From Pirellula sp. (GTDB lineage Bacteria; Planctomycetota; Planctomycetia; Pirellulales; Pirellulaceae): DNA of 64,000 nt. The notes beneath the pieces were generated by a model. The model was not told the DNA's origin, made no database searches, and saw nothing but the letters and a program-made list of their open reading frames with translations. Each line of letters starts with the position of its first letter. The first letter of the stretch is position 1. Shown piece by piece: positions 1,977 through 41,893 of the stretch. Location of the stretch: positions 1-64,000 of the forward strand of contig JAJTFB010000011.1 of NCBI GenBank assembly GCA_021300015.1, read 5' to 3'. A program made the position numbers and the translations under genes.

Positions 1977-2459
1977 ATGATCGCACGCTTGCTGCCAGGT
2001 TGCTACCTTTTTGGAATCGCTCTTTTCCTTGCGATTTGCGCGAATTGGTCGCCTAGCCTCAGCCAATCGGATCTGCCCCCTTTGCCCGATCGGCAGTCGC
2101 CCAACCCGCGTGCACCGCTCGATCCGCAACGCGCTCAAGCTTATCCACCCAGCGATCTTCAAAATAATGCGGCGGTCCCCCACGGGTTCGGTGTGCACGT
2201 CGTGGGTCCCTCGACCAGCAGCGCTACGGCCACGCATCTGATGTCCTCGGCAACCCTGAGCAATGGATTCCAACAACTAGTGATCGTCGATCCAGCTAAA
2301 CTGACTTTGGCGGTCTACCACATCGAACCCTCTCGCGGCGATATTCAGCTCAAAAGCGTCCGCAAGATCGATGCGGACTTCTCGCTAGAAGAGTTCAATC
2401 TGAGCGAGCCGACCCCCTCGACGATCCGACGCAATTCACGATCCCCTTCGATTCGTTAG
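1977..2459 (+). CDS. Secreted hypothetical protein
   Basis: About 160 residues. An N-terminal hydrophobic segment (LLPGCYLFGIALFLAICANW) followed by SLSQSD looks like a signal peptide. A proline-rich stretch follows, and then a compact C-terminal region containing QQLVIVDPAKLTLAVYHIEP and LKSVRKIDADFSLEEFN. This pattern (a value reported as current, then LAVYH and LKSVR) is one I associate with small conserved secreted proteins of planctomycetes, but I know no function. The start at ATG 1977 places the signal peptide at the N-terminus; an in-frame ATG at 1947 is possible. It converges on the RNase D gene with a 15-bp gap. Confidence 0.6.
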   Translation: MIARLLPGCYLFGIALFLAICANWSPSLSQSDLPPLPDRQSPNPRAPLDPQRAQAYPPSDLQNNAAVPHGFGVHVVGPSTSSATATHLMSSATLSNGFQQLVIVDPAKLTLAVYHIEPSRGDIQLKSVRKIDADFSLEEFNLSEPTPSTIRRNSRSPSIR

Positions 2460-2474
2460 CAAACCGCGCGCGTT

Positions 2475-3722: not shown

Positions 3723-3758
3723 TCGATCCTCGTTCAGCCTCTGTTTTAATCCTTCTCG

Positions 3759-4523: not shown

Positions 4524-4541
4524 CACCAGGACTAGCACCAG

Positions 4542-4787
4542 GTGAAACCAAAGACCACGAAGGAATCCGCGTTGTCCTCGAACCATCGTCCCTTGCCCCT
4601 CCCCGGCGTAGTAACCCAACGCGGAATCCCCGTCGGAGCCCTGGCCATCCCTCCGGATCATCCCGACGAATTCATCCGGGATTTCAACCAAAGCTACGAA
4701 ACGATCGGTCTGCATGCGAGTCTCCTGAGATTGCCTAGCTTTCCCAGTCCGCAAACCGAACCCAGCCCGGACAACCCGGATTCCTAG
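4542..4787 (+). CDS. Small hypothetical protein
   Basis: 81 codons from a GTG at 4542, 18 bp after mfnB. The product is rich in proline and polar residues, with a more structured middle (VGALAIPPDHPDEFIRDFNQSYETIGLHASLL). Codon choice resembles that of the neighbours and the gene is collinear with mfnB, which supports it being real. No domain recognised. Confidence 0.42.
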   Translation: MKPKTTKESALSSNHRPLPLPGVVTQRGIPVGALAIPPDHPDEFIRDFNQSYETIGLHASLLRLPSFPSPQTEPSPDNPDS

Positions 4788-4882
4788 CATCTTAGTGCGG
4801 ACTGTTAAGGTCCACGGTCGAATCCAAATAGGCAGCCTTCCCAACAGGTCTTCGTGCGCCTTGATCGGATTCCTCAAGCACA

Positions 4883-5116
4883 ATGCAAACAGCACCTACC
4901 CAATTCCTCTCCAACGATGCATCCGCGGTCGACGATGACCAAGCCGAATGCTCATCGATCCAGATGGACCATCCGGATCGTATGGCGGAGCTGAACGGTA
5001 GGTATGACCTGGTTCTGGAACAAATCGATGCATTAGATTTGCAGATTCTAAGGCTCCTGAAGGAAATATCTGGCGAAAAACCAGCCAACTTTCAGGCTCC
5101 TGAGCTTCCCCGTTGA
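4883..5116 (+). CDS. Small hypothetical protein with C-terminal helix
   Basis: 77 codons from ATG 4883. The N-terminal half is polar and acidic (DASAVDDDQAECSS). The second half forms one predicted amphipathic helix (RYDLVLEQIDALDLQILRLL) that superficially resembles the first helix of chorismate-mutase-type folds, but it is too short to assign. It lies between mfnB and the DUF1549 operon on the same strand. Coding status is likely but not certain. Confidence 0.42.
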   Translation: MQTAPTQFLSNDASAVDDDQAECSSIQMDHPDRMAELNGRYDLVLEQIDALDLQILRLLKEISGEKPANFQAPELPR

Positions 5117-5245
5117 CTCGGCCCCGGCATCCAACGATAAATTAGGAGTGGATCCGATGGGTCGGGAGTGAATCTCGAAGATCGGATCGCCGGGTTGCTC
5201 CAGACCCGCCCTCCTGCTTTACCTGCCTAACGATCGAGTCGGACC

Positions 5246-8239
5246 ATGTGTGGATGGATTCCGTTGCAACGCGCTCTTGAGGCCTTGGCCTCGAAAACAG
5301 CCATCGGCTGGCTTGCCGTTTTCGCCTTTTCCCAGAGCGTCTTCGGGCCTGCTGTAGGGCCTGCCCTAGGGCCTGCTTTCGGGCAAATCGAGAATCTCCA
5401 CAGCCGCATCGATGGTGCGGCCCAAGCGGACTTGCCATGGCTGACTGCGAGTCCCACCGAGCCGTCGCAGGCCCTTCGTCGCTTATCGCTCGATCTAAGG
5501 AACACGATCCCTACGATCGAAGAGATCGACGCGTACTTAGCCGAGCCTCCCGAGGGCCGCTGGGAGCGGTGGGTCGACCGATTTCTTGCCGATCCGGCTT
5601 ACCGCGAACGGATGGTCGATTGGTATGATAAGACCCTTCTGCAACGCCGTCCTTATCAAAATGTCGATCGAGCCACCTGGATCGCTTATCTTCGAAATGC
5701 CGTCGACGCGAACACTCCGATCGATGTGCTCATGCAAGGGATCGTCCAGAGCGTTTGGTGGGACAAGTCCGCACGAGCCCAGCAGCGATTCTTCCTCGAG
5801 CGGGGGGGCGATGCCCATGCTTTGGCGCGCGATGTGGGGCGAGTCTTTTTTGGCAAGGACATGCAATGCGCGCAGTGCCATGATCATCCGCAGGTCGACG
5901 ACTACTTGCAGATCGATTACCACGGCCTGTTGGCTTATGTTTCAGCCAGTTCGTTGGCCGAGGGGAAAACGACCGACGACAAGGGGGCCGAACAGAAGCT
6001 TCAGATGTACATCGAAAAAGCGGCGGGCGATGCCCCCTTTGAATCGGTTTTCAACAAAGGGGTCCCCTTCCGATCGGCCACGCGAGGGCCGGGTCAAATC
6101 GAGCTTTTCGAGCCGTATCTGGCTCCTGACGAGCGCTACGAACCTGCGGCTCGCCCAGGGGCTTTTGGTGGACTTCCTAACGCTCCCATGCAGAGTCGAC
6201 GCTCGCTCCTTGCTGCCCAATTGCAAGCCTCCAACCGTGACTTTTGCGAAAACTGGGCCAATCGACTCTGGGCCTTGATGTTCGGACGCGGGTTGGTCCA
6301 CCCGCTGGACATGCGGCACTTCGACAACCCAGCGAGCAATCCCGAGCTGCTGAAAATCCTGACCGACTCCTTGATCGAATCCAAATTCGACCCGTCGCAG
6401 ATCCTCAGGCAAATCGCTCTGAGCGGCACCTACCAACGAGGTCGCCGCATGCCACTCGAGTCGCTAGTCGACGGTCGCGGGGTGCTCCAAGTTCAGAGCC
6501 CTGAGGCGATCGCTTGGCGGGCCCAACTGAACGAGACGCTCGCAGTCGCCAAGTCGGCGATCCCAGCAGCGGAAAACGCCTCCAAGGAAAAGCAGACTGC
6601 GTTTGACGCTGCTGCGGATGCTTGGCGAGAAATCCAAAAGACACGCATCAGCATCCGCGCAGAACTCGACGCCTCGGAGGCCGGTTTTAACGAGGCCAAC
6701 AAAAAGTTCATCGATGCGGTCGCTGCCTTCGATAAAGCTTCGGCAGCCCATCAGGCGATCGCCAAGAAGACCGCTCTGTTGGACGAAGCCGCACAAAAAC
6801 TCGAACAGGCCAAGGCGTTGGGAGACGATCCGGAAATCCAAGCGAGCATCGTCGCTACACGTGCCAAAGTTGAGGCTCTCAAGCCTCAAATCACCGCGGC
6901 CGAACTCGCTGCGTCAACGGCTGCCACCGCACGCGATGGAGCTCTTGCGGCCAAAGAGACCAAACGCGTCGAATGGAAATCCGTCGTCGATCGGCTAAAG
7001 CCCGTCGAAGAACAACTCCAGCAAGCCGACCGGGCGATGACCCTGGCACGCGCGGGCTTCCAGGAATCCAGACAAATTGCAGCCAACCTTTCGCGGCGTC
7101 TCGAGCGACTCGAACGCGTTGCGATTTGGTTCGACCGATCGGCCGATGCCGCCGTCGCAGGAACCCAACTCGCGCTGGCTACCCAGCAGATGCCCTCGTT
7201 GCAGGAAGCTCTGGTGGTTGCCAACAACGAAAAGATCGTAATGGAACAAGCCATGCTCGCCCTTGAAGCGACCATGGGCGAAACGACCAAGCAGCTCGAG
7301 CCCATGGCTGGCAAATGGAAAGAACTCCTTGCGCAAAAAGACCAACTCGTCGCGACCAAATCCCAGTTGACCAACGCTGCCGGCCTCGTCGCCGACGCAG
7401 GGCCCCTCCAAGCGGCCATCGCTCAGATCGATGCGAGCCTAACAACCCGACAAAGCGAACTTGTCCCTCTCGAAGCCCTGTTGAAACAGCTCCAGACCAA
7501 CCTGGGGGAAATGCAAAAGAAGGTCGAGGAAAACAAGCTCTTGATCGCCAACGCACAAAGCAAAGTACAAGCGCAACAGACCGCACTCGATACCCACAGA
7601 GCATCGATCGAAACGCTGCAAACTCAGTCCGATAAGGTCGCACAGGAATGCGCGATGCAGAAGCTCGAAGTAGACCAGCATAACCAAGAGATTTTTGCGG
7701 TTGCTCCCGAGCGGGCTTTGAGCCCCGAGCAGTTCGGTTGGTCGATCCTGACGGCCACCAACATCATGAGCAGCTACATCGGTAACGAAAAAGCGGAATT
7801 GGACAAAAACGCCCCCCTAGCTGCCGATGCACCTGCTGCGGAGCAATACGCTAGGCTTTTGCAATCGGTCCGAGGGGCCCGCGATAAACTTCAAGGCAAC
7901 ATCGATACGTTTTCCACTTTGTATTCTTCGGGCGTTGGACAGACCAGCGACGACTTTTTTGCTTCCCCCGACCAGGCTCTCTTCGTAGCCAACGGAGGTT
8001 CGGTTTACGGCTGGGCCGCTCCCAACGGCAACAACTTGACCAACCTAGCAATCCAAAATCCCGACCCGCGATCGGCTGTCGAACTGCTCACCCGAGGACT
8101 CTTGGCAAGAGCGGCAAGTCCCTCCGAATTGGAATGGGTCCCCGAACTCATCGGGAAGAATCCCGAGTCCAAGCCTGCAGTATTCCATGAACTGGTTTGG
8201 GGAATTCTCGCTGGAGTGGAATTCCGAATTTATCCATGA
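5246..8239 (+). CDS. DUF1549/DUF1553 secreted protein with long coiled-coil insertion
   Basis: 997 residues. An N-terminal hydrophobic segment suggests export. A DUF1549 domain covers about residues 60-250, with PSEPSQALRRLSLDLRNTIP-type sequence and a haem-type motif CAQCH (MQCAQCHDHPQVDDY). DUF1553-like sequence follows (NRLWALMFGRGLVHPLD...QIALSGTYQRGRRMP), up to about residue 420. Residues about 425-815 are alanine-, glutamate- and glutamine-rich heptad sequence, a long coiled coil. A DUF1553-type end resumes (SRSAVELLTRGLLARAASP-like, then ELVWGILAGVEFRIYP). It heads an operon with a DUF1501 protein and a WD40 protein, a common planctomycete trio of unknown function. The role of the coiled coil is unknown. 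Confidence 0.88.
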   Translation: MCGWIPLQRALEALASKTAIGWLAVFAFSQSVFGPAVGPALGPAFGQIENLHSRIDGAAQADLPWLTASPTEPSQALRRLSLDLRNTIPTIEEIDAYLAEPPEGRWERWVDRFLADPAYRERMVDWYDKTLLQRRPYQNVDRATWIAYLRNAVDANTPIDVLMQGIVQSVWWDKSARAQQRFFLERGGDAHALARDVGRVFFGKDMQCAQCHDHPQVDDYLQIDYHGLLAYVSASSLAEGKTTDDKGAEQKLQMYIEKAAGDAPFESVFNKGVPFRSATRGPGQIELFEPYLAPDERYEPAARPGAFGGLPNAPMQSRRSLLAAQLQASNRDFCENWANRLWALMFGRGLVHPLDMRHFDNPASNPELLKILTDSLIESKFDPSQILRQIALSGTYQRGRRMPLESLVDGRGVLQVQSPEAIAWRAQLNETLAVAKSAIPAAENASKEKQTAFDAAADAWREIQKTRISIRAELDASEAGFNEANKKFIDAVAAFDKASAAHQAIAKKTALLDEAAQKLEQAKALGDDPEIQASIVATRAKVEALKPQITAAELAASTAATARDGALAAKETKRVEWKSVVDRLKPVEEQLQQADRAMTLARAGFQESRQIAANLSRRLERLERVAIWFDRSADAAVAGTQLALATQQMPSLQEALVVANNEKIVMEQAMLALEATMGETTKQLEPMAGKWKELLAQKDQLVATKSQLTNAAGLVADAGPLQAAIAQIDASLTTRQSELVPLEALLKQLQTNLGEMQKKVEENKLLIANAQSKVQAQQTALDTHRASIETLQTQSDKVAQECAMQKLEVDQHNQEIFAVAPERALSPEQFGWSILTATNIMSSYIGNEKAELDKNAPLAADAPAAEQYARLLQSVRGARDKLQGNIDTFSTLYSSGVGQTSDDFFASPDQALFVANGGSVYGWAAPNGNNLTNLAIQNPDPRSAVELLTRGLLARAASPSELEWVPELIGKNPESKPAVFHELVWGILAGVEFRIYP

Positions 8240-8366
8240 TTCGGCGTTTGGCGCAAAGAAGCCAAGCTCGAAGCCCTAGCAGCAACTCCTGACCGATACG
8301 CTTTACGAAAATCCTTTACGAACACCCTTAACCAATCCCCCTTTACGATCAACGCGGAGTAGAACG

Positions 8367-9662
8367 ATGAGCAACCGAGCACGATACGCCTGTGGATCGA
8401 TGGACCATGCGCTCAGTCGCCGAAGATTTCTGGGAGCCAGTGGGCTCCTCGGCGCCTCGGGGATCTTGGGTGGGGTAGCCAGCCTGCCCTCGAAGGTCGC
8501 TGGAGCGATCCCCAAAAACGACTACCGTGTTGTCGTTTTCAATATGCACGGGGGACTCAGTCAACTCGAGAGTTGGGACCCTAAACCCTCGACCAACACC
8601 GGTGGGCCCTTTCGCGCCATCGCCACGAGCGTCCCTGGAATTCACATCAGTGAACTCTTGCCCAAGACAGCCAAGCAGATGCATCATCTGTGTCTCCTGC
8701 GGGGCGTCAATACCGCCGAGGACGATCACGGCAAAGGTGCTTACATGATGCTCACTGGCAGGCGTCAAACGCCGGCCGCCGAGTATCCTCAGGTCGGATC
8801 GGTGGCCGCCAAGATGCTCCACGATGATCAAACGGGATTACCGGGGCATATCATCATCACTCCGGGCGGCGGAGGGGGGCGAGGCAACGAAGCTGCGTAT
8901 TTGGGACCGAAATTCAACAGCATCCACCTGGGAGGGGACAAGCCTCCGCAGAACTCCAACAAACCCGATGCGATCGCCCAAGAGGCTGAAGAACGCAGGC
9001 ACCTGCTGCGTCGGAAAATCAATGAACAGTACCTGAGCCAACGCCGCTCGGCAATCACCGATGCCTACACCCATTCCTACGAGCAAGCTTTGAAGCTCAT
9101 GGAGCGGCGCGAGGTCTTCGACGTCAGCAAGGAGCCTCAGGCGGCCCAGGACAAGTACGGCAATTCCGAACTTGGGCGGCAGTGTTTGGTCGCGCGGAGA
9201 CTTTTGGAAAACGGCGTTTCGTTCGTTCAAATCACCCACTCGAACTACGACACCCACAACGACAACTTCAATTTTCATATCGAACAAGTAGGCGAGTTCG
9301 ATCTCGCCTACGCGACATTCATCGAAGACCTCGCCGAGCGAGGGATGCTCGAGAAAACCTTGGTCGTCGTCCTGAGCGAATTCGGACGAACCCCGAATAT
9401 CAATCTCTACTACGGACGCGACCACTGGTCGAAAGCTTGGTCGGTCGCCATGGCGGGAGCCAAGATTGTCCCTGGGGCAGCCTTCGGACAGACCAACAAG
9501 GAAGGTACCGAGGTGGTCGATGGACAGGTCGATCATGGGGATATCTTCCATACCATCCTGCGTGGAGTCGGAGTCGATTCGAGCCAATCGCTGATCGTCG
9601 ATGGACGCGAATTGCCGATTGCAGATCCAGCCGCAGAACCGATTTGGAAGGTCCTGGTATGA
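8367..9662 (+). CDS. DUF1501 domain protein (Tat-exported, sulfatase-like fold)
   Basis: 431 residues. A twin-arginine signal is visible near the N-terminus (SRRRFLGASGLLGASGILGG). The body shows DUF1501 features: FNMHGGLSQLESWDPKP, LRGVNTAEDDHGKGAYMMLTGR, CLVARRLLENGVSFVQI, VVVLSEFGRTPNIN and GRDHWSKAWSVAMAGAKI. DUF1501 proteins belong to the alkaline-phosphatase-like superfamily and occur next to DUF1549/DUF1553 genes; their substrates are unknown. The start is either ATG 8367 or ATG 8400, the second placing the Tat motif closer to the N-terminus. The stop codon overlaps the ATG of the WD40 gene. Confidence 0.93.
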   Translation: MSNRARYACGSMDHALSRRRFLGASGLLGASGILGGVASLPSKVAGAIPKNDYRVVVFNMHGGLSQLESWDPKPSTNTGGPFRAIATSVPGIHISELLPKTAKQMHHLCLLRGVNTAEDDHGKGAYMMLTGRRQTPAAEYPQVGSVAAKMLHDDQTGLPGHIIITPGGGGGRGNEAAYLGPKFNSIHLGGDKPPQNSNKPDAIAQEAEERRHLLRRKINEQYLSQRRSAITDAYTHSYEQALKLMERREVFDVSKEPQAAQDKYGNSELGRQCLVARRLLENGVSFVQITHSNYDTHNDNFNFHIEQVGEFDLAYATFIEDLAERGMLEKTLVVVLSEFGRTPNINLYYGRDHWSKAWSVAMAGAKIVPGAAFGQTNKEGTEVVDGQVDHGDIFHTILRGVGVDSSQSLIVDGRELPIADPAAEPIWKVLV

Positions 9663-22524: not shown

Positions 22525-24018
22525 CTAAGCGAGCAACTCCCGCACAACCCGCGCAGGCCGGTTCGAGGTGATGAATTGCTGGGTGTTGTTGTAAGGAAAA
22601 CTCACCTTGGTGTGGTCGAGTCCAAACAGGTGCATGACCGTCGCTTGAAAATCGTTGGGGGTAACCAGTTGTTCAACGGCCTTGTGCCCGAACTCGTCGG
22701 TCTTTCCAAACGCCATCCCACCCTTGATGCCACCCCCTGAGAGCCAAATACTGAACCCTTGGCCATTGTGATCCCGGCCAGCCCGTTCGGGACTGCCGTG
22801 ATCTTGGGTCACCGGCAAACGACCTATCTCTCCACCCCAATGGACCAACGTGGAATCGAGCAAGCCTCGTTGCTTGAGGTCCGCAACTAAGCCGGCGACC
22901 GGTTTATCGGTCTTGCGGCAAATCGCGGGCAAATTCTTCTGGATGCTATCGTGATGATCCCAAGGTTGGCCGGAGTGGAATAATTGCACGAAACGAACTC
23001 CTCGCTCGATAAGTCTTCGAGCCAAAAGGCAGCGTGTTCCGTACTCGCGCGATTCAGGATCATCGATGCCGTAGAGATTTAAAGTCGCTTGGGTCTCCTT
23101 GGAAATATCGAGAGCATCGGTCGCTGCGAGCTGCATTCGCGCGGCCAACTCATAGGTCGCCATCCGCGCGTTCAACTCCGGTTCATCAGGATGATGGACC
23201 GTATGTTGCCGATTGATCTCATGGAGCAGTTCCAGGTTTTGCTGCTGCATCTGGCCTGCCAAATGAGGGGGCGGTTGGAGATTGAAAATCCGTGGCTCCT
23301 TGGGCCTGAGCACCGTTCCTTGAAACAGCGCTGGCATAAACCCATTGGACCAATTCGTCACCCCATCGACCGGATGTCCGCCGGGGTCGCTTAGGACCAT
23401 ATAGGCCGGTAGATCTTGAGACTCACTCCCGAGGGCGTAAGTCAACCAGGAGCCTAGGGTCGGGCGACCAAGGATTCCAGGAATCCCTCCATGAAAGTAG
23501 CGTATCGAAACCTCGTGCCCGTTGTTGCCCGTATGCATGCTGCGAATCAAACAGATATCGTCGATGACCCCAGAGGTATGAGGCAACAGCTCGGACAATT
23601 CGGTGCCGCAGTTCCCCCGAGGTGCAAAGGCAAACGGACTCCCGAGAAGTTTCTTGCTCGCTTGATTGACGAACGAAAATCCCACGTCCCCTTGGTAATC
23701 GGTCCCATGGAACTTGGTCAACTCCGGCTTCGGATCGGTAAGATCCATGTGGGAGGGGCCGCCGTGTTGGAACAGCGAGATCATCGCCTTGGCCTTGGGC
23801 TCGAAATGCGTTGCTCTAGGGTGCAGATCCCTATGGGGCTTGTCCTTGATTACCGGTGGTTGCCCACGGGCGGCTTCCTGTGCCAGCATCAGCTCCAGGG
23901 CGATCGCGCCGACACCCATCCCTATTTGCTGCAACCAACGGCGTCGTTGGGGCATCCAAAGTTCATCGTCGTGCATCGGATCGGTCATGGGAGTAGGTTG
24001 AAGTTTGGGAGAGTCCAT
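22525..24018 (-). CDS. DUF1501 domain protein
   Basis: 497 residues. A Tat-like N-terminus (MPQRRRWLQQIGMGVGAIALE) precedes DUF1501 signatures: AMISLFQHGGPSHMDLTDPKPEL, CLIRSMHTGNNGHEVSIRY, LARRLIERGVRFVQLFHSG, LVHWGGEIGRLPVTQD and GRDHNGQGFSIWLSGGGIKGG. It belongs to the alkaline-phosphatase-like superfamily. It lies 11 bp downstream of the PSD1 gene and clearly forms a two-gene operon with it, a pairing found very widely in planctomycetes. Function unknown; probably acts on extracytoplasmic polymers. It converges on mqnE with only a few bases between stops. Confidence 0.93.
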   Translation of the reverse strand: MDSPKLQPTPMTDPMHDDELWMPQRRRWLQQIGMGVGAIALELMLAQEAARGQPPVIKDKPHRDLHPRATHFEPKAKAMISLFQHGGPSHMDLTDPKPELTKFHGTDYQGDVGFSFVNQASKKLLGSPFAFAPRGNCGTELSELLPHTSGVIDDICLIRSMHTGNNGHEVSIRYFHGGIPGILGRPTLGSWLTYALGSESQDLPAYMVLSDPGGHPVDGVTNWSNGFMPALFQGTVLRPKEPRIFNLQPPPHLAGQMQQQNLELLHEINRQHTVHHPDEPELNARMATYELAARMQLAATDALDISKETQATLNLYGIDDPESREYGTRCLLARRLIERGVRFVQLFHSGQPWDHHDSIQKNLPAICRKTDKPVAGLVADLKQRGLLDSTLVHWGGEIGRLPVTQDHGSPERAGRDHNGQGFSIWLSGGGIKGGMAFGKTDEFGHKAVEQLVTPNDFQATVMHLFGLDHTKVSFPYNNTQQFITSNRPARVVRELLA

Positions 24019-24029
24019 CGAAGGGGCGG

Positions 24030-27000
24030 TTAGTCAACGTAGAGAAATTCGTTGGTGTTGAGCAACATATGGCAGATGTTGGTCAGCACCTGCGACGTCG
24101 GGGTGCTGCCGCTGCTGAGCCGCTGGGGTTCGCGATAGAGCAGCTCCAATTGCGCAGGGACAAAACGGCTTAAGACCGCCAATTCCTTATCCGTCGGAAA
24201 TCGGTGCAGGATGTGTTTCCATGCGGCGATGATTTGATGTCCAAGGGCCGAGGTGTCCTCTTGCTGGAGCCGAAATCCAATCGCCGAATCGAAAACCATC
24301 GAATTTTTTGTTGACTCGCCTGGCTGCGAAGCCGTTGGGTTCCAAGTGATCTTAACCGTCCAAGTGAACGAGTCGGAGGTTTCCTGCTGACCGCACTCGA
24401 GGACCAGATCGATCGCATCGCCTGCCTCGACCGCTAGGTTCGCCACAGGCGTCGAGACCGAACCGGCTTGGATGCTCCAACGGCCAGCCTGCCCAAGCTT
24501 CGAGCTGACAAACCCGATCACGCCGTCTCCGTTGGGGCTGCCGTGCGAGAGCGACCCGCTGATTTCCACCGTCCCCGATTCCGGCGCGATCCAACGCCGG
24601 ATCGCTGGATAAGCGGGGTTGCCAGGATGCCCCCCCGATTCGGTGAGGAATACCCAGCCTGTCGTCGCATCGGGGACCTGAACCCCCGGATGACTCCGGC
24701 CCTGGGTCTGTTGCGAAAACTCGGAAAAGCCTTCGACTTTGCCACTGTCCTTGTTCAACGTACCGGTGCCATAGCGCCATGGGGACGCGGGTGCTGTCGG
24801 CAATTGCCAATCCGAAACGCCTTGGGGGGCGCCTTGGGGGGCGGACTCCGATTTTGATGTGCCCGATTGCGCGATGACCCGTTTAGCGATCTTTTCAGAT
24901 TGCTCCAAGAGGAACTCGTTGTTCATCATCATCAGCGATTGCGGCGCGACGGTCGAACTCGGACGCGACTCGCACAAGACTCCCATGACCGGGGCATCGA
25001 ACGCTTGAAGCAGTGCGACGGGCTGGGTCCGTCGCCATTTGGCATACAGACTCCTTCGAGGCTGGGCCGGATCGAGTCGGACTTGTCCAGCCTCGTCCTC
25101 TTGAAGAGGAATCGGTGCTCCGAAAAGCTCCGGTTTGAGCTCACCGGAGAGCCCAAGCACACTATCGCGCAGGACCTCAGCATCAATGCGCTGAAGATCC
25201 CGTCGCCAATAAAATCGGTTCTCAGGATCGATCGATTCGCCATGGGGATTGCGGACGGAGGATTGGCGGTAAGCGGTCGAAAGAAGGATCCGACGATGCA
25301 GATGTTTGAAACTCCAGCCGTGTTCGATCCAATCCAAGGCGATCCAATCGAGCACCTCAGGGTGGGTTGGAGGACTTCCGAGTTTCCCAAAGTCGCCGGG
25401 CGTTGCCACGATCGCTTTGCCGAAATGATGCATCCAAACGCGGTTGACTATCGCTCGAACGAACAGAGGGTTGGGCGGATCGATTTGGGTCAACCACTTG
25501 GCAAAAGCCAATCGTCGACCGCTCGTCGGGAGGCTAGGATCATCGTCGTTGAAATGTTTGTTGGAAGTCTCATCGACCAATACGCTCAGTTTCCCTGGCG
25601 GGACTTCGCGGGTCGGTTGATTCAGATCCCCTCGATGCAAGAGCTTGGTCACCGGTAGGTGCCCTGGAGGTTCGCTCAGGGCTTGCAGGAACGTCTCGGC
25701 CGGTTTTTTCGCTCTGGTCTCGGCGATCGTCGCATCGAATTTCTTGAGCTCCTCGGCTGCCTCAGGCAGATATTGGTAAAGCACTCCGGGCGAGATATTG
25801 ACGCTCGGGTGTTTGTCCAGAAGCATTTTTTGCTCTTCGGTCCGTTTGTCGACCGGAGATTCATAGGCGGAGCGCAGCATGGTGCGAAGCGGTTCTTCGA
25901 ACTTCATCAGCTCTTTGTCCAAGGCATTCTTGATGAATTCGGCTTCCTTGGTTGCGCGTTGGGCACTGATGGCTTGAGCTTCCATTTCGATTTTCGACGA
26001 AAGCTCGACCTCGGCTTGGGTGATCAGGGAGACCAAGCGTTCGGAGGGCGTTTTCCATGCGATCGGGTCAAGCGCTGGAGCCAGGACGGCTCTCAGGGCG
26101 AAGTAGTCTTCGTGAGATAGAGGATCGTAGCGATGGTCATGGCACTGCGCGCAATTCAAACTCGAACCCAAAAGCGTGCTGCCGATCACTTGAAGGGTAT
26201 CTGCAATCGTTTTGTTGCGAGCCTCTGGCGAATTATCGCCACTTGCCGTTCCGTCGGCGGTCATCCTCAAGAATCCCGTCGCGGTCAAAAGCTCGATTTG
26301 GGTTGGGGTCCAGTCGCCTTGTTTGGGACCGGCTAGTTCGTCCCCTGCAAGCTGTTCGACGATGAACCGATCGATGGGTTTGTCTTGATTCAATGAAGCG
26401 ATCACATAATCGCGATAGCGCCAAGCCCAAGGTCTCTCTGCGTCGGCCAATGTCGCGCCATCGCTATCGGCATATCCGACTGCATCCAACCAATGACGCG
26501 CCCAACGCTCGCCATAGTGGGGACTTTGAAGGAGCGAATCGACCAACTGTTCGTACCAGTTGCTCTCGGCAAGCTGCATCCAATGCTGGAATTGCTCGTC
26601 GCTCGGAGGTAGACCGATGAGGTCCAAAAATACGCGTCGGACCAAGGTCTCTCGGGGTGCATCCGGAGAGAACCTCAATCCTTGAGGCATGGCTTGTGCG
26701 AGCACCTGATCGATCGCGTTGCGGATTCGATCTCCATCGATCTGGATTGCAGTCGATGGCTTGGCCACTGGACGGTAAGCCCAATAAGAGCGTTCGGCGT
26801 CGGTCAGTGGGATTCCAGGTCCGATGGTTTCGGGCTCCGGACGGTGCGTCGGTGCTCCGGATTCGATCCAAGCCCTCAATAGCTTTTTCTTTTCCTCGGA
26901 GACTTTCAAGGTTCCGGGGGGCATATCCTCCGACTCGATGCGCTGAAGGATCAACGAAGCGTCTGGATTACCTGCAACCAGGGCTGGACCTGAATCCCCA

Positions 27001-27203
27001 CCCTGGACCATCAAACGCACGAGCCTCAGATCGAGCGAACCTTCGTGCGTTTCCGTTGCCCCATGGCAATCCAAGCAGTACTCGCGCAGGATTGGACGAA
27101 TGTGGGATTCAAATTTCGGTTCCTCTGCCGAGCTGATGCCACAAGCAGCAGCGATCGCCAAGCTCGCTACGATCCGAGCCAATAAAGAAAAACTGTGCAA
27201 CAT
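24030..27203 (-). CDS. PSD1/DUF1549/DUF1553 cytochrome-like secreted protein
   Basis: 1057 residues. Signal peptide (LLARIVASLAIAAACGISSAE), then a planctomycete cytochrome-type PSCyt1 domain with haem motif CLDCH near residue 44 and GDSGPALVAGNPDASLILQRI. DUF1549 follows (LVRRVFLDLIGLPPSDEQF...YGERWARHWLDAVGYADSDG) and includes a second CxxCH (CAQCHDHRYDPLSHEDYF). DUF1553 comes next (FVRAIVNRVWMHHFGKAIV...LSTAYRQSS), then DAPVMGVLCESRPSSTVAPQSL and a C-terminal ICHMLLNTNEFLYVD. Inserted near residues 815-975 is a region resembling a sugar-binding or jelly-roll module. First gene of the operon with DUF1501. Confidence 0.93.
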   Translation of the reverse strand: MLHSFSLLARIVASLAIAAACGISSAEEPKFESHIRPILREYCLDCHGATETHEGSLDLRLVRLMVQGGDSGPALVAGNPDASLILQRIESEDMPPGTLKVSEEKKKLLRAWIESGAPTHRPEPETIGPGIPLTDAERSYWAYRPVAKPSTAIQIDGDRIRNAIDQVLAQAMPQGLRFSPDAPRETLVRRVFLDLIGLPPSDEQFQHWMQLAESNWYEQLVDSLLQSPHYGERWARHWLDAVGYADSDGATLADAERPWAWRYRDYVIASLNQDKPIDRFIVEQLAGDELAGPKQGDWTPTQIELLTATGFLRMTADGTASGDNSPEARNKTIADTLQVIGSTLLGSSLNCAQCHDHRYDPLSHEDYFALRAVLAPALDPIAWKTPSERLVSLITQAEVELSSKIEMEAQAISAQRATKEAEFIKNALDKELMKFEEPLRTMLRSAYESPVDKRTEEQKMLLDKHPSVNISPGVLYQYLPEAAEELKKFDATIAETRAKKPAETFLQALSEPPGHLPVTKLLHRGDLNQPTREVPPGKLSVLVDETSNKHFNDDDPSLPTSGRRLAFAKWLTQIDPPNPLFVRAIVNRVWMHHFGKAIVATPGDFGKLGSPPTHPEVLDWIALDWIEHGWSFKHLHRRILLSTAYRQSSVRNPHGESIDPENRFYWRRDLQRIDAEVLRDSVLGLSGELKPELFGAPIPLQEDEAGQVRLDPAQPRRSLYAKWRRTQPVALLQAFDAPVMGVLCESRPSSTVAPQSLMMMNNEFLLEQSEKIAKRVIAQSGTSKSESAPQGAPQGVSDWQLPTAPASPWRYGTGTLNKDSGKVEGFSEFSQQTQGRSHPGVQVPDATTGWVFLTESGGHPGNPAYPAIRRWIAPESGTVEISGSLSHGSPNGDGVIGFVSSKLGQAGRWSIQAGSVSTPVANLAVEAGDAIDLVLECGQQETSDSFTWTVKITWNPTASQPGESTKNSMVFDSAIGFRLQQEDTSALGHQIIAAWKHILHRFPTDKELAVLSRFVPAQLELLYREPQRLSSGSTPTSQVLTNICHMLLNTNEFLYVD

Positions 27204-27308: not shown

Positions 27309-27563
27309 CCCGCTCAGGGATTCCGCGGCACCATCGAATTCCATTGCCATCCTTCTCAACATCGCCACAATTCGCACCTGTTTGGATTTCAGATCGAAAG
27401 GCGACAGACGTCAAGTCGATCGACCGGCAGTGCCGCAGTTCAAACAGCCATCGAGATCCGATGCGATACACGATCAGAGTCAAACACGACGTTTGTGACC
27501 GGATGCCAGCAAGCAACAGATCGGGCCGAAGTATCAGCCTGAAGTATCAGCCCGAAACATCAG

Positions 27564-27636
27564 AGCGGGTGATGGGATTCGAACCCACGACTTCCAGCTT
27601 GGGAAGCTAGCACTCTAGCCGCTGAGTTACACCCGC
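27564..27636 (-). tRNA. tRNA-Gly (anticodon CCC)
   Basis: Read on the minus strand it folds as a 73-nt tRNA: 7-bp acceptor stem GCGGGTG/CACCCGC with discriminator T, D arm ACTC...GAGT, anticodon arm CTAGC-TTCCCAA-GCTGG, and T arm GTGGG-TTCGAAT-CCCAT. The anticodon in the loop TTCCCAA is CCC, which decodes GGG glycine. CCA is not encoded. It lies 49 bp downstream of the PafA/Dop-like gene on the same strand. Confidence 0.95.
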
Positions 27637-27685: not shown

Positions 27686-29356
27686 TCAGCGGCGGAAGAG
27701 GACGCTGTAGTTCTCGCCTTCTAATTCGTAGCTCGCTTTCTCCCAACTGACGGTGATCTTGGAATCCGAGTCTGCGAATTCTCGAATCCAAGTGCCGCGC
27801 CGCCAAGCGGGTGATTGGGCCGGGGGCATGCGCATGGCAAGCTGGATTTCTTGATCGGAGACCAAAGGGGACAATTGCAGATTCTCCAGGAGCTGACGAA
27901 AGTAGCCTTCGGAGGTCAGTTCATGGTAACGGATGTCGATCTTTTTCTTGACGCTCCAATCGGTGTCTTTACCCAGTTGCTGCAGGAGCCAGAGCTTGCT
28001 GATCCAGTCGATTCGGCCGACGAGCAGCATCGGCGGCTGATTTTGATTTTTGGGCATCGCATCGATCTGATTGAGGGTCATTTGCCAGAGCTCGATGATC
28101 TCCCAAGCTTCCCTGGGAACCTCGGATTTTTTCTCAAGCCAACTTTTGAGAGTCCTCAAGTAGATTCGAGATAGGTCACGGGACTTGTAGTCGAGCCCCT
28201 TGCGATCCGGCATCGAACGGACCAACATCCAGTCTCGGGCATACTCGCGTATTGCAGTGGTGGCCGAGCGCAACTGAATGGCCTCGACGTTAGGATTCTG
28301 CTCGACCCAGTCGAGGACCAGGGCCGTCGATCCGAGCCTGAGCCACTGCGATTGCTGACACATCCCGGAATCGCCGATCGCGATCTCGATTCTCTGAATC
28401 GGGCGGAGCAATTCGAAGAAATTCGTCAGGCTCCAATAAGGCCCCGAGAGAAGCTTGCGCAGCAATGGATCGCAGCGGAACATCGGGCGATGGGCATTGT
28501 AACTCCCAAACCCAATCTGTCGGTCGACCATCGCGGCGCGGGAACTGATCCAGAATTTGGATTCCGGATCGAGGTATCCGGCTCCATCCAAAAGGCATCG
28601 AGAAGCCAAGAAAGCAGACGCGTTTCGCCGATGGGGTCGCAGGGCCACCACGTAGAGCAGAAGCCCGAACAGCCACACGATGGGCGCATGGAGCTGGCGT
28701 AGGCCCCAAGCGCCCAGGATCCATTGCCAGGGTGCCATCGGGAAGCCTAAGAGGCAATCGTGGCTTTGCAAGGAATCTAGTTTATTAGCCGATGTTTTGT
28801 CGTTGCCCCAACCGGCCATACCGAGCCCACGGTGGCCCAGCGAGATCAGCAGCATACTGCCGAGCCAAAGGGCTGCAAGGCATCGGTAGAGAAGCAATGG
28901 CAAGAGGAGCAATGCCAGCCCGATCCACCATGCGATCAACCAGGGGCCTTGTGCGATGCGCATGTCGTACGACTCGTGCTGGCCGAGAGTATGTCCATAC
29001 GCATCGCTATTGGATTTGATGAGCGACCAGTCTTGTGAAGGTCGGTGGGCCTCAAGGGCGTCTTGGAGGATTTGTTCGTTGGCCAACTGGTAGCAAACGA
29101 CCTGACGTGGACTACGAGTTTCAGGTGTTGCGATTTCGATCAGGGCGGTAGATAGATCGGCTGAGCCACCCATTTCGAGAGAAAGACTCGATCCATTGGC
29201 AAGGAACCAACGAAGAGCGTGATGGCTCGGTGCTAGCGGCAGTCGTTCGCGGATCGATTTGAGGATTGCGGAGAACTCTTTGAGCGAATCTTTTTGGGCA
29301 TCTTTAGGATGCCTCCAAAACATTTCCGATTCGAGTCCGATGTACCGGTGGAGCAA
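27686..29356 (-). CDS. PafA/Dop-family (Pup ligase/deamidase-like) protein with membrane insertion
   Basis: About 556 residues from a TTG at 29356, chosen because it gives MLHRYIGLESE, the family N-terminus (RIxGxExE), with GGAGAG 10 bp upstream. Family features continue: NGSSLSL, IATPETRSPRQVV, SNSDAYGHTLGQHESYDMR (compare KNNTDGxGxSYGxHENY), FWISSRAAMVDRQIGFGSYNAHRPMF, GDSGMCQQSQWLRLGSTALVLDWVE and DWSVKKKIDIRYHEL. Between HESYDMR and GAGYL there is a roughly 105-residue insertion with strongly hydrophobic helices (WLIAWWIGLALLLLPLLLYR; IVWLFGLLLYVVAL), so the enzyme is probably membrane-bound. The catalytic Asp of VDHAHPEY is not obvious (LSTALIEI aligns there). It begins 7 bp after the Pup-like gene. 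The family is clear; ligase or hydrolase activity is not. Confidence 0.82.
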   Translation of the reverse strand: MLHRYIGLESEMFWRHPKDAQKDSLKEFSAILKSIRERLPLAPSHHALRWFLANGSSLSLEMGGSADLSTALIEIATPETRSPRQVVCYQLANEQILQDALEAHRPSQDWSLIKSNSDAYGHTLGQHESYDMRIAQGPWLIAWWIGLALLLLPLLLYRCLAALWLGSMLLISLGHRGLGMAGWGNDKTSANKLDSLQSHDCLLGFPMAPWQWILGAWGLRQLHAPIVWLFGLLLYVVALRPHRRNASAFLASRCLLDGAGYLDPESKFWISSRAAMVDRQIGFGSYNAHRPMFRCDPLLRKLLSGPYWSLTNFFELLRPIQRIEIAIGDSGMCQQSQWLRLGSTALVLDWVEQNPNVEAIQLRSATTAIREYARDWMLVRSMPDRKGLDYKSRDLSRIYLRTLKSWLEKKSEVPREAWEIIELWQMTLNQIDAMPKNQNQPPMLLVGRIDWISKLWLLQQLGKDTDWSVKKKIDIRYHELTSEGYFRQLLENLQLSPLVSDQEIQLAMRMPPAQSPAWRRGTWIREFADSDSKITVSWEKASYELEGENYSVLFRR

Positions 29357-29363
29357 CCGCGTT

Positions 29364-29603
29364 CTACTCTCCGCTTTGTCCCGCGTCGATCTGCTCCAAA
29401 TAGTTTTGGACTTGCGTCTGAGTATCTTTCTCAACGGACTTCACCCACGCTTGTAGCCGATTTTCGATCGAGGTTATCGAGGTTACGGTGGGGGCCGGTT
29501 CAGGAGTCGTGGCTGCCGAATTCTCGGGCGAAGTTCCCGTGGGTGACGTTGCATCGTCGGGCGACAATGCACGCTTCGGGATCTCGATTCGTTGGCTTTC
29601 CAT
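29364..29603 (-). CDS. Small Pup-like protein ending Ser-Gly-Glu
   Basis: 79 residues. The first 40 are disordered and rich in Pro, Ser and Thr (SPDDATSPTGTSPENS). Residues about 44-73 form one predicted helix or coiled coil (SIENRLQAWVKSVEKDTQ...VQNYLEQID). The chain ends AGQSGE. Pup and UBact modifiers have the same plan: disordered N-terminus, a central helix read by the ligase and unfoldase, and a C-terminal Gly-Glu or Gly-Gln that is coupled to lysines. The position directly before a PafA/Dop-family gene (7 bp between its stop and that gene's start) strongly supports this. GGAAAAGG lies about 8 bp before the ATG. Sequence similarity alone would not prove homology. Confidence 0.62.
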   Translation of the reverse strand: MESQRIEIPKRALSPDDATSPTGTSPENSAATTPEPAPTVTSITSIENRLQAWVKSVEKDTQTQVQNYLEQIDAGQSGE

Positions 29604-29739
29604 CGAAGTACCTTTTCCAACGCGGGAAATCCGAGTCCGGCGAACCAGCCCTCACGGGTATCCATTCTAAGTGCCCGGCGAGCGGTTGGCGCGAACCGGG
29701 TCAAAATTCCTGCGGATTTTTCGCGAGGTCGCGGAGTGA

Positions 29740-31026
29740 CTAAGCGCTTTCTTTGCGTTGTGGGACGGATTTAACCGGAGTGACCTTTCCGGATTGTTCG
29801 TCGAGGTCGATGGTATAGACAGTTCCTTCTTCTTGTTCGGGAAGATCGAACATGACGTCCATCATGATTTCCTCGACGATGCTTCGGAGTCCACGGGCAC
29901 CGACACTCTTGGTGTGGGCTTTCTTGGCGATCGCCATCAGGGCGTTTTCGGTGAACTTAAGCTGGCAGTTTTCCATCCCGAACAAGGCTTGGTATTGCTT
30001 GATCAGCGCATTTTTCGGTTCGGTCAGGACCTTGACCAGCCCGGAGACGTCCAAAGGAGCCAAGGCCGTAACGACGGGTAAGCGGCCGATGAGTTCGGGG
30101 ATCAAGCCAAATTCGAGGATATCGTCCGAGTGGACTTGGCCTAAGAGAGTCGCAACATCTTTTTCCTCTTTGATGGTGGTTCCTGGTCCGAAGCCGAGGG
30201 ATTTTTTTCCTAGCCGTTTCGAGATGATTTCATCGATACCGACAAATGTCCCGCCGCAGATAAAGAGGATGTTCGTCGTATCCATCTGGATATACTGCTG
30301 CTCGGGGTGCTTGCGTCCACCTTGGGGTGGTACGTTCGCGACGGTTCCTTCGAGCATTTTCAGGAGCGCTTGTTGGACTCCTTCTCCGGAGACATCGCGG
30401 GTGATCGAAACGTTTTGGCTGGTTTTGCCGATCTTGTCGATCTCATCGATGTAAAGGATCCCTCGCTGGGCGGCTTCGATATCGAAGTCGGCTGCATGGA
30501 GGAGTTTCAAGAGGAGGTTTTCGACATCCTCGCCGACGTAACCGGCTTCGGTCAGTGTGGTCGCATCTCCGATGGCAAACGGAACGTTGAGCATTTTGGC
30601 CAAGGTTCTGGCGATAAGCGTTTTGCCGCAACCGGTGGGCCCTACGAGCAAGATGTTGGATTTTTCGATCTCGATGTTGGAGTCATCCCAACCGGCGCTC
30701 AAACGCTTGTAGTGGTTATGGACTGCCACGGCCAGGGCTCGTTTGGTTTGCAATTGGCCGATGACATACTGATCGAGGTGCTCGACGATCGAGCGTGGAG
30801 TTGGGATATCTCCAAAGAGTTTTTTCGTCGGCCCACGGCGGCGTTGCTCTTGTTCGAGCATCGAGGAGCATAGCTCGATGCACTCGCCGCAGATGTAAAC
30901 CTCTCCGGGCCCTTCGACCAAGGGGCCGACATCCCGATAACTCTTGCGACAAAAAGAACAGTTCTTTTTGGTGTTGCCGTTGCCAGTAGATTTCCTGCTG
31001 GCCATTACATCCTTACCTGACGACAT
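29740..31026 (-). CDS. clpX: ATP-dependent Clp protease ATP-binding subunit ClpX
   Basis: AAA+ unfoldase that recognises substrates and feeds them to ClpP. About 428 residues from ATG 31026, which has GGAG 7 bp upstream; ATG 31005 is an alternative. The N-terminal zinc-binding domain is present (CSFCRKS...[10 protein letters not shown]), then [24 protein letters not shown], Walker [16 protein letters not shown], Walker [11 protein letters not shown], pore-loop region [11 protein letters not shown], and sensor 2 [13 protein letters not shown]. An IGF-type ClpP loop appears as KKSLGFGPG. No clpP lies nearby. It is 136 bp upstream of the Pup-like gene on the same strand, and the three genes may be one transcription unit. 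Confidence 0.95.
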
Positions 31027-31378
31027 ACTCGACTCCAAATCTATCGCTTCGTGGGGATGCTTACGGTGCACCACAACCGGCGACGGGGACACGGGTTGAT
31101 CGCTCGATGGTCTGACTTCGTTGTTGAAACACGTTTTGCAACGGTAATGTTTTGAAACGGTGATTCTAAACGAACTTTCAAACCGGCAATCCGTGCCATG
31201 GCTTTCGAGCTTTTTGGGTTTTGGTTCCTTGGAAGATCGGGGATCGTCCAAGTTCGGCCTCCCAGACCGATAGGTATTCATAGTGGATCTTGACGACGCT
31301 TCCTGACGGCGTCCTATCTTAACACAACAAGTTCACCGGAGACCTCGATCGCTTCCAAAGCGATTCTACGGTCCGGTG

Positions 31379-39627: not shown

Positions 39628-40584
39628 ATGTCGACGGCCGTTTACGAAACCTCTCGCAAGATCATTTCGAACGTCGAAAAGTGCATCGTCGGCAAACGGA
39701 AGCAACTGGTCTTCTCCTTGGTCTCCTGGTTTTCAGGTGGCCATATCCTTTTGGAGGATGTTCCAGGGGTTGCCAAGACCATGCTCGCCAGGGCCCTGGC
39801 TGCCAGCGTCGGAGGACGGTTCAAACGGGTCCAATGCACTCCGGATCTGCTGCCCGGCGATATCACCGGCTCATCGATCTACAACCAAAAAACGTCTGAC
39901 TTTGAATTTCGCCCTGGGCCTGTGTTTGCCAATATCCTCCTGGCAGATGAAATCAACCGAACCACCCCCCGCGCGCAGTCGTCCTTGCTCGAAGCGATGG
40001 CCGAAGGTTGCGTGACGGTCGATGGAGTGACCCACAAGCTCCCTCCCCCTTTTTTGGTCATCGCGACACAAAACCCCGTCGATCACGAGGGGACCTTTCC
40101 GCTGCCAGAGGCCCAACTCGATCGCTTCTTCATGAAGTTCACCCTCGGTTATCCGTCGATGGAAGAGGAGCTGAAAATGCTTCAGATGCTCGAAACCGAG
40201 CACCCCATCCAATCCTTGAAGCCTGTCGTCAGCATCGAAGAATTGCTCGAAGCTCAAAAATTGGTCCAAAAGGTCTACGTCGACCCCAAAGTCCGACAAT
40301 ACATCCTCCAGATCGTCCATGAAACGCGCGCCCATAGCGATCTTGCACTCGGTGCTGGACCTCGCTCGACCATCGCACTGTTTCGAGCCGCCCAAGCCAT
40401 GGCTGCCATCCGTAGCCGAGACTTCGTTCAACCCGATGATATCAAGCGGATTTTGCAACCCGTCATGAGCCACCGCTTGATCCTAAGGCCCGAGGCTCGA
40501 CTGCGCAAGTTGACCTCCGATCGGATCCTTGAGGACATCCTGGCCGAGATCGCCGTTCCAACGCTCGAAGAAAACGGGCGCTGA
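39628..40584 (+). CDS. MoxR-family AAA+ ATPase
   Basis: 318 residues. Walker A is HILLEDVPGVAKTMLARALA, Walker B is ILLADEINRTTPRAQSSLLEAMAEG, and the sensor region is VIATQNPVDHEGTFPLPEAQLDRFFMK, all typical for MoxR (RavA/APE2220 branch). MoxR proteins act as chaperones in assembling or activating partners, often with a DUF58 and a von Willebrand A protein. The DUF58 partner follows 4 bp later, so they form an operon. Confidence 0.93.
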   Translation: MSTAVYETSRKIISNVEKCIVGKRKQLVFSLVSWFSGGHILLEDVPGVAKTMLARALAASVGGRFKRVQCTPDLLPGDITGSSIYNQKTSDFEFRPGPVFANILLADEINRTTPRAQSSLLEAMAEGCVTVDGVTHKLPPPFLVIATQNPVDHEGTFPLPEAQLDRFFMKFTLGYPSMEEELKMLQMLETEHPIQSLKPVVSIEELLEAQKLVQKVYVDPKVRQYILQIVHETRAHSDLALGAGPRSTIALFRAAQAMAAIRSRDFVQPDDIKRILQPVMSHRLILRPEARLRKLTSDRILEDILAEIAVPTLEENGR

Positions 40585-40588
40585 TGCG

Positions 40589-41893
40589 ATGGCAATCCTC
40601 CCGCTGATCGCTCTGTTGCTCCTGCTCGGGATCCTGACCGGAGCGAATTTCTTTGCCTTAGGGGCTTGTACCTTTCTGATTGTCATCCAGTTGGCCAAGC
40701 ATTTTTCGAGTCGATGGATTCAAGCCGTCGAGGTTCAACGGTTTGTCGAAGCCCATGAGATCGAAGTGGGCCAGAGCGTAGCAGTCGGCATGAAGATTTC
40801 GAATGCATCGGGCTATTGGATTCCTTGGATGCTCATCGACGACAAGATTGCCAAGAGGTACACCAAGCAACCCCCGTTTGCATTGAAAATCCTATCGGCA
40901 AGCGTCCAGCTTTTTTCTTTTCGACCGAAACAAACGACCCTCCATCGCTATGCGATCGAGGCCCAGCGCCGAGGCTACTATCAACTCGGCCCAACCCTGT
41001 TGGAAACAGGCGACCTGCTCGGTCTGCACCGAAGCTATCGCATCGCAAACCAACCGAGCTACATCACCGTCTTACCCCAGCTAATCGTTCTAGAATCTGT
41101 AGAGGTTTCCAGTCGCCGACCGATGGGAGAAATGAAAGTCGAGGATCGGCTGCTCGAGGACCCAACACTCATGAGCGGTTTGAGGGAATACCGAGCCGGC
41201 GACCCGATCAACCGGGTCCACTGGAAAGCGACGGCTAGAACAGGAGTCCTCCACACCCGGGTCTTTCAGCCGACATGCGTTCAGGGAGCGATGTTGCTCT
41301 TGGACATGCACGAATCGACCAACCCTCGAAAGCACGAACCGGTCCGAACGGATCTTGCCGTCACCGCTGCGGCCTCGATAGCGCATTGGCTTTACCTCAA
41401 CAGCGAACCCTTCGGATTGGTCAGCAACGGCCGCGATGCGGCCGATCGGATGCGGGAACTCAACAAACGATCGCAGTACCAAGACCGCCAAAGGGCGACT
41501 GCGAACATCGAGATGAAGACTCACAACGATCGCCTGACCCCGATTCTCCTAGGAGCCAATCGGACGCCTGAGCATTTCGCCGAAATGCATCGCATGCTCG
41601 CTAGACTCGAAAGAACCGATGGCCTGAAACTCGATCAGTTGCTCCTTGAGACCGAAAGTCGGCTTCCAAAACTCCTTTCGCTCATCGTGATCGCCCAGCA
41701 AGTCGATGAAGCTGGACTGATGGCCTTGGAGATGATGAAACGCCGAGGGCACTCCTTGACCATACTGCTCAATTGCCACCAAGAGGAGTACTTCGATCAT
41801 GCGGCTCGCCTGATCGCCGCTCGATTGCCCGTGGTGCCTTTGCATGACGAAGAAACCCTGAGCGAATACCTCAAGGATCGATCCGCACGCTAG
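40589..41893 (+). CDS. DUF58 domain membrane protein
   Basis: 434 residues from ATG 40589 (MAILPLIALLLLLGILTG); longer frames overlap moxR and are rejected. Two N-terminal membrane helices (residues 1-40) precede a beta-rich region and the DUF58 core VEDRLLEDPTLMSGLREYRAGDPINRVHWKATARTG, followed by a vWA-like part with LLLDMHES. DUF58 proteins work with MoxR ATPases, with unknown substrate. A C-terminal segment (LSLIVIAQQVDEAGLMALEMMKRRGHSLTILL) completes the Rossmann-like part. Confidence 0.92.
   Translation: MAILPLIALLLLLGILTGANFFALGACTFLIVIQLAKHFSSRWIQAVEVQRFVEAHEIEVGQSVAVGMKISNASGYWIPWMLIDDKIAKRYTKQPPFALKILSASVQLFSFRPKQTTLHRYAIEAQRRGYYQLGPTLLETGDLLGLHRSYRIANQPSYITVLPQLIVLESVEVSSRRPMGEMKVEDRLLEDPTLMSGLREYRAGDPINRVHWKATARTGVLHTRVFQPTCVQGAMLLLDMHESTNPRKHEPVRTDLAVTAAASIAHWLYLNSEPFGLVSNGRDAADRMRELNKRSQYQDRQRATANIEMKTHNDRLTPILLGANRTPEHFAEMHRMLARLERTDGLKLDQLLLETESRLPKLLSLIVIAQQVDEAGLMALEMMKRRGHSLTILLNCHQEEYFDHAARLIAARLPVVPLHDEETLSEYLKDRSAR

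Follow-up and report, generated by a model that had tools for sequence, protein, structure and literature searches.

Can a bacterial protein modifier and its ligase work where no proteasome is found, and is a neighbouring unfoldase their partner? The question was raised by a locus of Pirellula sp. (assembly GCA_021300015.1), in which a gene for a small Pup-like protein, a gene of the PafA/Dop family (pafA below) and clpX lie together on the minus strand. The window is the whole stretch of DNA that was analysed, 64,000 nt (positions 1-64,000 of contig JAJTFB010000011.1), and locus coordinates refer to it. We consider it probable, at roughly 0.7, that the first two genes form a proteasome-free pupylation pair, in which a membrane ligase would attach Pup to lysines of proteins close to the membrane, as a signal that does not lead to a proteasome. 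If true, a modifier with a ligase but without a proteasome would show clearly that bacteria tag proteins for non-destructive purposes.

A small protein ending in Gly-Glu and a ligase with a hydrophobic insertion

The pup-like gene (29364-29603, minus strand) encodes 79 residues ending in AGQSGE, and it was identified from its translation, the alignment of its tail, its substitution rates and profile matches across the family. The N-terminal part is variable and rich in Pro, Ser, Thr and Glu, with no conserved motif in an alignment of 40 such proteins; about 30 C-terminal residues are conserved up to a Ser-Gly-Glu end. In this alignment the last residue was Glu in 40/40 and the penultimate one Gly in 38/40, the other two proteins ending in GAE, and an Asp and a Tyr, 20 and 12 residues from the C-terminus, were near-invariant. 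The ratio of nonsynonymous to synonymous substitution rates (Ka/Ks) was calculated for seven pairs from the clade of clpX-linked relatives. It was 0 to 0.41 for the last 45 residues and 0.24 to 0.80 for the whole open reading frame (ORF). The low Ka/Ks and the conserved Gly-Glu end indicated that the small ORF behaves as a gene. Its length and end also agree with those of a Pup (50-90 residues, C-terminal G[EQ]). The initial annotation had pointed to a small Gly-Glu-ended protein before a PafA/Dop-family gene, and both the gene order and the conservation of the end were borne out.

The neighbouring gene (27686-29434, minus strand; 582 aa when read from a TTG at 29434, within pup) matched Pfam Pup_ligase (PF03136) with 220 bits against a cut-off of 25 (E 7.4e-65). 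It was the single PafA/Dop-family match in its own genome, with pup adjacent. Eleven residues (G10, E12, E14, E77, E82, D121, E131, R256, R325, D352 and R523) were identical in 44/44 aligned enzymes; in the GhExE motif (G-L-E-S-E; 29324-29338, minus strand) the Gly and the two Glu were identical in 44/44. The enzyme thus carries the GhExE motif and conserved residues of the carboxylate-amine ligases, the motifs being those given in the passages of Iyer et al. 2008 (PMC2588565) drawn on here.

The ligase contains a hydrophobic insertion (28598-28957, minus strand), which follows the [HQ]E[NS]Y motif and precedes the next conserved Arg. Segments were defined by hydropathy only, as 19 residues above 1.5 on the Kyte-Doolittle scale; by this measure the insertion held at least one segment in 44/44 enzymes, two or more in 39/44 and three in the window protein. 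A transmembrane insertion after core strand 4 marks the membrane-type enzymes of Iyer et al. 2008, and by hydropathy the window ligase is one of them. The membrane link suggested earlier for the tagging system was supported by this insertion.

Co-occurrence and overlap of pup and pafA

The ligase was present in 27/27 genomes of the genus, in 120/241 genomes of the family and in 29/393 genomes across the phylum, where completeness was set to 90% or more with the window's own genome included. A small ORF stood directly before the ligase in all 24 genus loci fetched and, judged by coordinates, within about 155 nt of it in the remaining three genomes (G005, G009 and G020); all 27 genus genomes carry the pup-pafA pair. 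A Pup profile built from the 40 tails matched 105/241 family genomes, namely 103/120 with the enzyme versus 2/121 without it (Fisher p 6e-47). When the 33 training genomes were left out, the counts were 70/87 versus 2/121. In two of the 103 (G470 and G475) the match did not reach the final profile position; that of G470 lies at a contig end. The match in the enzyme-less G577 also stopped short of the end, and a second profile did not confirm it.

This second profile, made from divergent tails, gave matches running to its final position for 8 of the 17 misses and for the enzyme-less draft G562. None of 20 enzyme-less controls was matched to the end, and two gave partial matches (E 0.07-0.09). 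In total, a Pup match of the Gly-Glu type was found in 111/120 enzyme-bearing family genomes. Of the nine others, two (G437 and G570) had no enzyme match long enough to accommodate the insertion, and seven were drafts at 66-93% completeness (G542, G556, G557, G560, G564, G574 and G588). The survey gives a testable basis for further work: a pair that co-occurs in about half of the family, single-contig genomes included, with a defined Pup end and, as set out below, a likely ligase start codon and a clpX that proves to be a lineage-specific neighbour.

The two genes do not always lie side by side. Read by eye from match coordinates, pup adjoined pafA in 77/111 genomes, lay on a separate contig or far off in 33/111, and was unclear in one (G470, with both genes at contig ends); a different contig in a draft is weaker evidence of separation than distance on one contig. 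Separation occurred in the genera g7, g8, g307, g312 and g313, and both genes were kept. One genome of g8 (G585), counted among the 77, carries pafA twice, with pup beside one of the copies, and G554 and G563 hold pafA fragments only. The expectation of a conserved small ORF upstream of the enzyme was upheld throughout the genus; in the initial set of 44 enzyme loci, seven had no adjacent small ORF, and these come from genomes outside the genus, which have a Pup match elsewhere. In addition, two pup-pafA pairs at separate places were present in each of three genomes (G544, G545 and G546; L117 and L118 in G544).

In the genus, the two reading frames are closely tied. In 23/23 genus loci measured (L189 was skipped by the search pattern), the distance from the pup stop to the start of the GhExE motif was exactly 22 nt, and this spacing was constant although the enzymes fall to about 40% identity; outside the genus the gap varied from 22 to 202 nt. 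The enzyme frame extended back into pup; in 24/24 genus loci it offered an in-frame TTG there, 71 nt upstream of the end of the pup stop codon. Such a TTG inside pup was also present in L131 (G401), and in L116 and L118 outside the genus. No ATG, GTG or TTG was found between the pup stop and GhExE in 6/23 genus loci. The pup codon that supplies the TTG was ATT or GTT in 24/24 genus loci, and in the same enzymes ATT accounts for 31% of Ile codons and GTT for 29% of Val codons. With random synonymous codons, the product probability of a start in all nine representatives (less than 75% identical) was 2.4e-5 and that of an open frame alone 0.026, the draws not being independent as the loci share ancestry.

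The substitution pattern agreed with this. Over 13 close genus pairs, the final 22 codons of pup had 0.177 synonymous changes per site (28.5 of 161.3) versus 0.535 for the enzyme core, and the pup value was below that of the core in 12 of the 13. Nine control pairs from outside the genus also had the lower value in the pup tail (0.379 versus 0.489, p 0.01), two control pairs showing zero synonymous change, and the genus value lay below the control value (p 1e-4); some members occur in more than one pair, which makes these p values approximate. The conserved TTG, the fixed spacing and the low synonymous change suggested that the pup tail is probably dual coding over 71 nt (29364-29434, minus strand), the end of pup and the start of pafA being read in frames offset by +1. 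As far as these sequence comparisons go, the TTG at 29434 is the probable start of pafA, as is its counterpart throughout the genus, and it would give the ligase a basic extension. The two genes had at first been placed 7 bp apart. There is indeed a TTG (29356) 7 nt past the pup stop, but comparison of the loci makes it a less likely start than the one at 29434. Programmed frameshifting that would fuse Pup to the ligase was considered and set aside, since the in-frame TTG explains the overlap.

Proteasome genes, clpX and the fate of tagged proteins

To place the pair, we looked at the proteasome genes of the genus. The 20S proteasome family PF00227 gave no match over cut-off in the 27 genus genomes and one sub-threshold match (G021); Mpa (TIGR03689) likewise gave none over cut-off, the best score being 215.6 of 504.75 bits. 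Among 14 control genomes, PF00227 passed in ten, E. coli included, presumably owing to HslV, and TIGR03689 passed in one. With the window's own genome at 81% completeness, the lack of proteasome and Mpa matches over cut-off is stated for the genus, and at this whole-genome level the proteasome-free character first noted from the locus was upheld. In the wider family, PF00227 was over cut-off in 151/241 genomes, with a single match except in G506, G509 and G536, and we take these matches as HslV-like or Anbu-like enzymes.

We propose that the ligase would lie on the cytoplasmic face of the membrane, held by the hydrophobic helices inserted in its catalytic fold. Because the insertion should keep it there, its substrates would be membrane-proximal. 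The enzyme would use ATP to activate the gamma-carboxylate of the C-terminal Glu of Pup, and the activated Pup would be joined to lysines of nearby proteins; as Pup already ends in Glu, no deamidase would be needed. The single enzyme may remove the tag too. The tag would then be a signal at the membrane and not a proteasome address, with ClpX as no dedicated partner. According to the passages of PMC8755798 drawn on here, mycobacterial Pup docks its C-terminal half in the groove of the ligase, contacts Mpa through residues 21-51 and uses its N-terminus for threading. The window's Pup is conserved in its tail only, which fits reading by a ligase groove and not by an Mpa-type receptor. A fuller version is offered tentatively and, in our judgement, falls somewhat short of even odds: a reversible, membrane-bound signalling pupylation in which one enzyme works in both directions and, in the Pirellula overlap, the codons for Gly-Glu double as codons for the ligase's basic N-terminus.

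Several observations weigh against a pupylation pair. Scanned in Pfam and NCBIfam, the 40 small-protein members gave no match to the curated Pup models, and the profile of the 40 tails gave no PDB match to solved Pup chains. Kinship with actinobacterial Pup is therefore not established by sequence, and the small protein is Pup-like by its gene context and C-terminal end. (Small ORFs ending in GGQ or GGE beside presumed soluble pairs, L142 and L149, gave no Pup-model match either.) The ligase scored 126 bits against the PafA model TIGR03686 (equivalog cut-off 551.3) and 121 bits against the Dop model TIGR03688 (492.3). With bits so far under both cut-offs, it is a PafA/Dop family member but neither PafA nor Dop proper. 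An AlphaFold2 model, with a mean predicted local distance difference test score (pLDDT) of 47.7, was too poor for use. The position aligned with Asp64 of PafA 4b0t (codon 29174-29176, minus strand; profile alignment to 4b0t and 4bjr) was Glu in 43/44 enzymes, the window's included, and Asp in 1/44. We take Asp64 to be the catalytic Asp, and the 4bjr chain carries Asn at this position, which supports such a role. On this alignment, Glu for the presumed catalytic Asp is a conservative change, and in this residue the enzyme departs from its family.

The Glu at this position and the score below the PafA cut-off suit a reading in which the enzyme is a Dop-like hydrolase or a small-amine ligase and the peptide a carrier or precursor instead of a protein modifier. 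The profile of the 44 relatives scored 239.7 bits against the solved Dop structure (E 5e-70) versus 181.2 bits against PafA (E 2.5e-52), and planctomycete homologues align partially with the Dop-loop (PMC7947786, in the passages drawn on here), which implies some Dop character. However, the distance from the GhExE Gly to the conserved acid is 54 residues in the window protein; PafA 4b0t has 50 and Dop 4b0r about 88, so the full Dop-loop appears absent. A Pup ending in Glu makes deamidation unneeded, and a lone hydrolase would lack a ligase to reverse; we hold this reading to be quite unlikely. Alternatively, Pup on proteins close to the membrane might not be a non-proteolytic signal but direct them to a different AAA+ machine, for example FtsH or a Cdc48-like ATPase. 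A membrane-bound ligase would put tags near FtsH, and the variable Pup N-terminus could be an initiation region, as in the Mpa system (PMC8755798, same passages). Moreover, sub-threshold Mpa-model matches, presumed to be FtsH- or Cdc48-like, occurred in all 27 genus genomes. Yet the neighbour clusters held no conserved link to an AAA gene, and Pup has no conserved N-terminal motif. We regard this outcome as unlikely.

The unfoldase favoured in the initial annotation was ClpX, so that Pup-tagged proteins would be recognised and degraded by ClpXP. The clpX gene (29740-31281, minus strand; NCBIfam ClpX equivalog, 604 bits versus a cut-off of 359) lies directly upstream of pup-pafA on the same strand in 8/27 genus genomes (G000, G002, G004, G006, G007, G013, G016 and G017). 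A clear ClpP (E below 1e-80) was present in 25/27, G017 giving no match and G020 a weak one, and a long, variable Pup N-terminus would suit this fate as well. In one further genome (G590 of genus g8; L179 3150-7289), a pup away from pafA has clpX at a distance of about 2.4 kb, on the other strand; clpX was not found at the other nine fetched loci with a separated pup. Nevertheless, the eight linked loci formed a single clade with 100/100 support in a maximum-likelihood tree of 54 membrane-type and four presumed soluble enzymes. Across them the gap between clpX and pup, counted to the first Met, ranged from 17 to 500 nt. Each of the 27 genus genomes has one clpX (E below 1e-100), linked or not; it is 1.04 Mb from pafA in the single-contig G001 and on a different contig in 18 drafts. 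Clustering of neighbours placed clpX in 8/64 loci, next after the family f1 described below, and among these 64 loci it was near pup or pafA outside the clade in L179 only. From the clade-limited linkage, the tree and the variable spacing, clpX is a recent, lineage-specific neighbour, and we judged it not to be part of the system. ClpX was rejected as a partner on these grounds, which likewise give no support to a new tagging route for ClpXP delivery; degradation of tagged proteins by ClpXP appears very improbable.

Other neighbours were compared by clustering over 64 loci, the surroundings of separated pup genes being taken from ten genomes, and no family besides pafA and pup was judged linked. 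The commonest other family, f1, occurred in 9/64 loci across genera, the window included (protein at 22525-24018). We take it to be DUF1501-like; it is probably background, and the window seems to hold a second copy of this kind. A gene pair that we presume, from the look of the sequence, to encode a large PSD1/cytochrome-like protein and a DUF1501-like protein occurs twice in the window (22525-27203 and 5246-9662). In L116 (G529; 1990-8798, minus strand), pup is followed by a run of pafA, f8 and f27, with f8, after pafA, encoding a long protein with a hydrophobic N-terminal part. The same family was seen near a pup that does not adjoin pafA in four g7 genomes (L177, L181, L183 and L185), close to a gene that we assume to be hisA-like. 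Neither f8 nor f27 matched a Pfam family. The f8 protein may be the membrane protein mentioned by Iyer et al. 2008.

A second type of PafA/Dop-family gene was observed in four genomes (G403, G569, G466 and G469), which carry the membrane-type pair plus two adjacent genes of the family, presumably of the soluble type. The family search placed one such gene pair in L150 (5497-11560, plus strand) and others in L151, L152 and L153. Some of these open frames reach 828-1143 aa, and in the L150 pair (1143 and 875 aa) Pup_ligase was the sole domain recognised by Pfam. G403, G466 and G569 have one PF00227 match each.

Around the window locus, a tRNA-Gly gene (27563-27636, minus strand) was found, and G+C across the region was 0.50-0.57. 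Promoter-like and terminator-like sites in the locus were at the level of shuffled sequence (1 versus 2.2 and 5 versus 4.8, respectively). The 12 nearest named relative loci come from genome bins labelled Pirellula, Planctomycetaceae or Planctomycetota. Elsewhere in the window (39628-41893), a gene that we presume to encode a MoxR-like AAA ATPase is followed by an overlapping, presumably DUF58-like gene.

Comparison with known systems

A pupylation-like system tied to a membrane process had been put forward as new, and the arrangement had in fact been described. In the passages drawn on here, Iyer et al. 2008 (PMC2588565) reported Pup with a ligase bearing four inserted transmembrane segments in Rhodopirellula and Plesiocystis, noted that this membrane-type pair is unlinked to proteasome genes, and proposed a regulatory modification of membrane proteins. 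A literature search, with most subscription journals outside its reach, found no experimental work on planctomycete pupylation. The locus is a further example of this proteasome-free membrane-type Pup system, predicted in 2008 and, as far as we found, not yet put to experiment.

Compared with the actinobacterial Pup-proteasome system (Pup, PafA, Dop, Mpa/ARC and 20S), the window's system shares the enzyme family and the C-terminal Gly-Glu. It differs in having no 20S or Mpa match over cut-off and one enzyme in place of PafA plus Dop, a ligase with a membrane insertion and Glu for Asp, and a Pup that Pup models do not recognise. Single-copy planctomycete PafA/Dop homologues, about 29-31% identical to PafA and Dop, were used as an outgroup in PMC7947786. 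The enzyme described here resembles them in being single-copy and present in some Planctomycetes; neither the Pup partner nor the membrane insertion nor the gene overlap is a subject of the passages of that paper drawn on here.

The closest likeness is to the R. baltica and P. pacifica system in the same passages of PMC2588565, which has a GE-ending protein, one PafA-family enzyme, hydrophobic helices after core strand 4 and no proteasome-gene linkage. Unlike that system, pafA here probably begins within pup, and clpX is a neighbour in the window's clade. The ligase has three hydrophobic segments by hydropathy instead of four helices, and no counterpart of the linked membrane-protein gene was found to be shared outside the window's clade. 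Whereas pup is given there as adjacent in all lineages, we found it separated in five genera, with the exception of one copy in G585. Collectively, our analysis adds to the 2008 prediction the genus-wide overlap, the separation of pup and pafA in five genera with both genes kept, and a Glu at the position of the presumed catalytic Asp.

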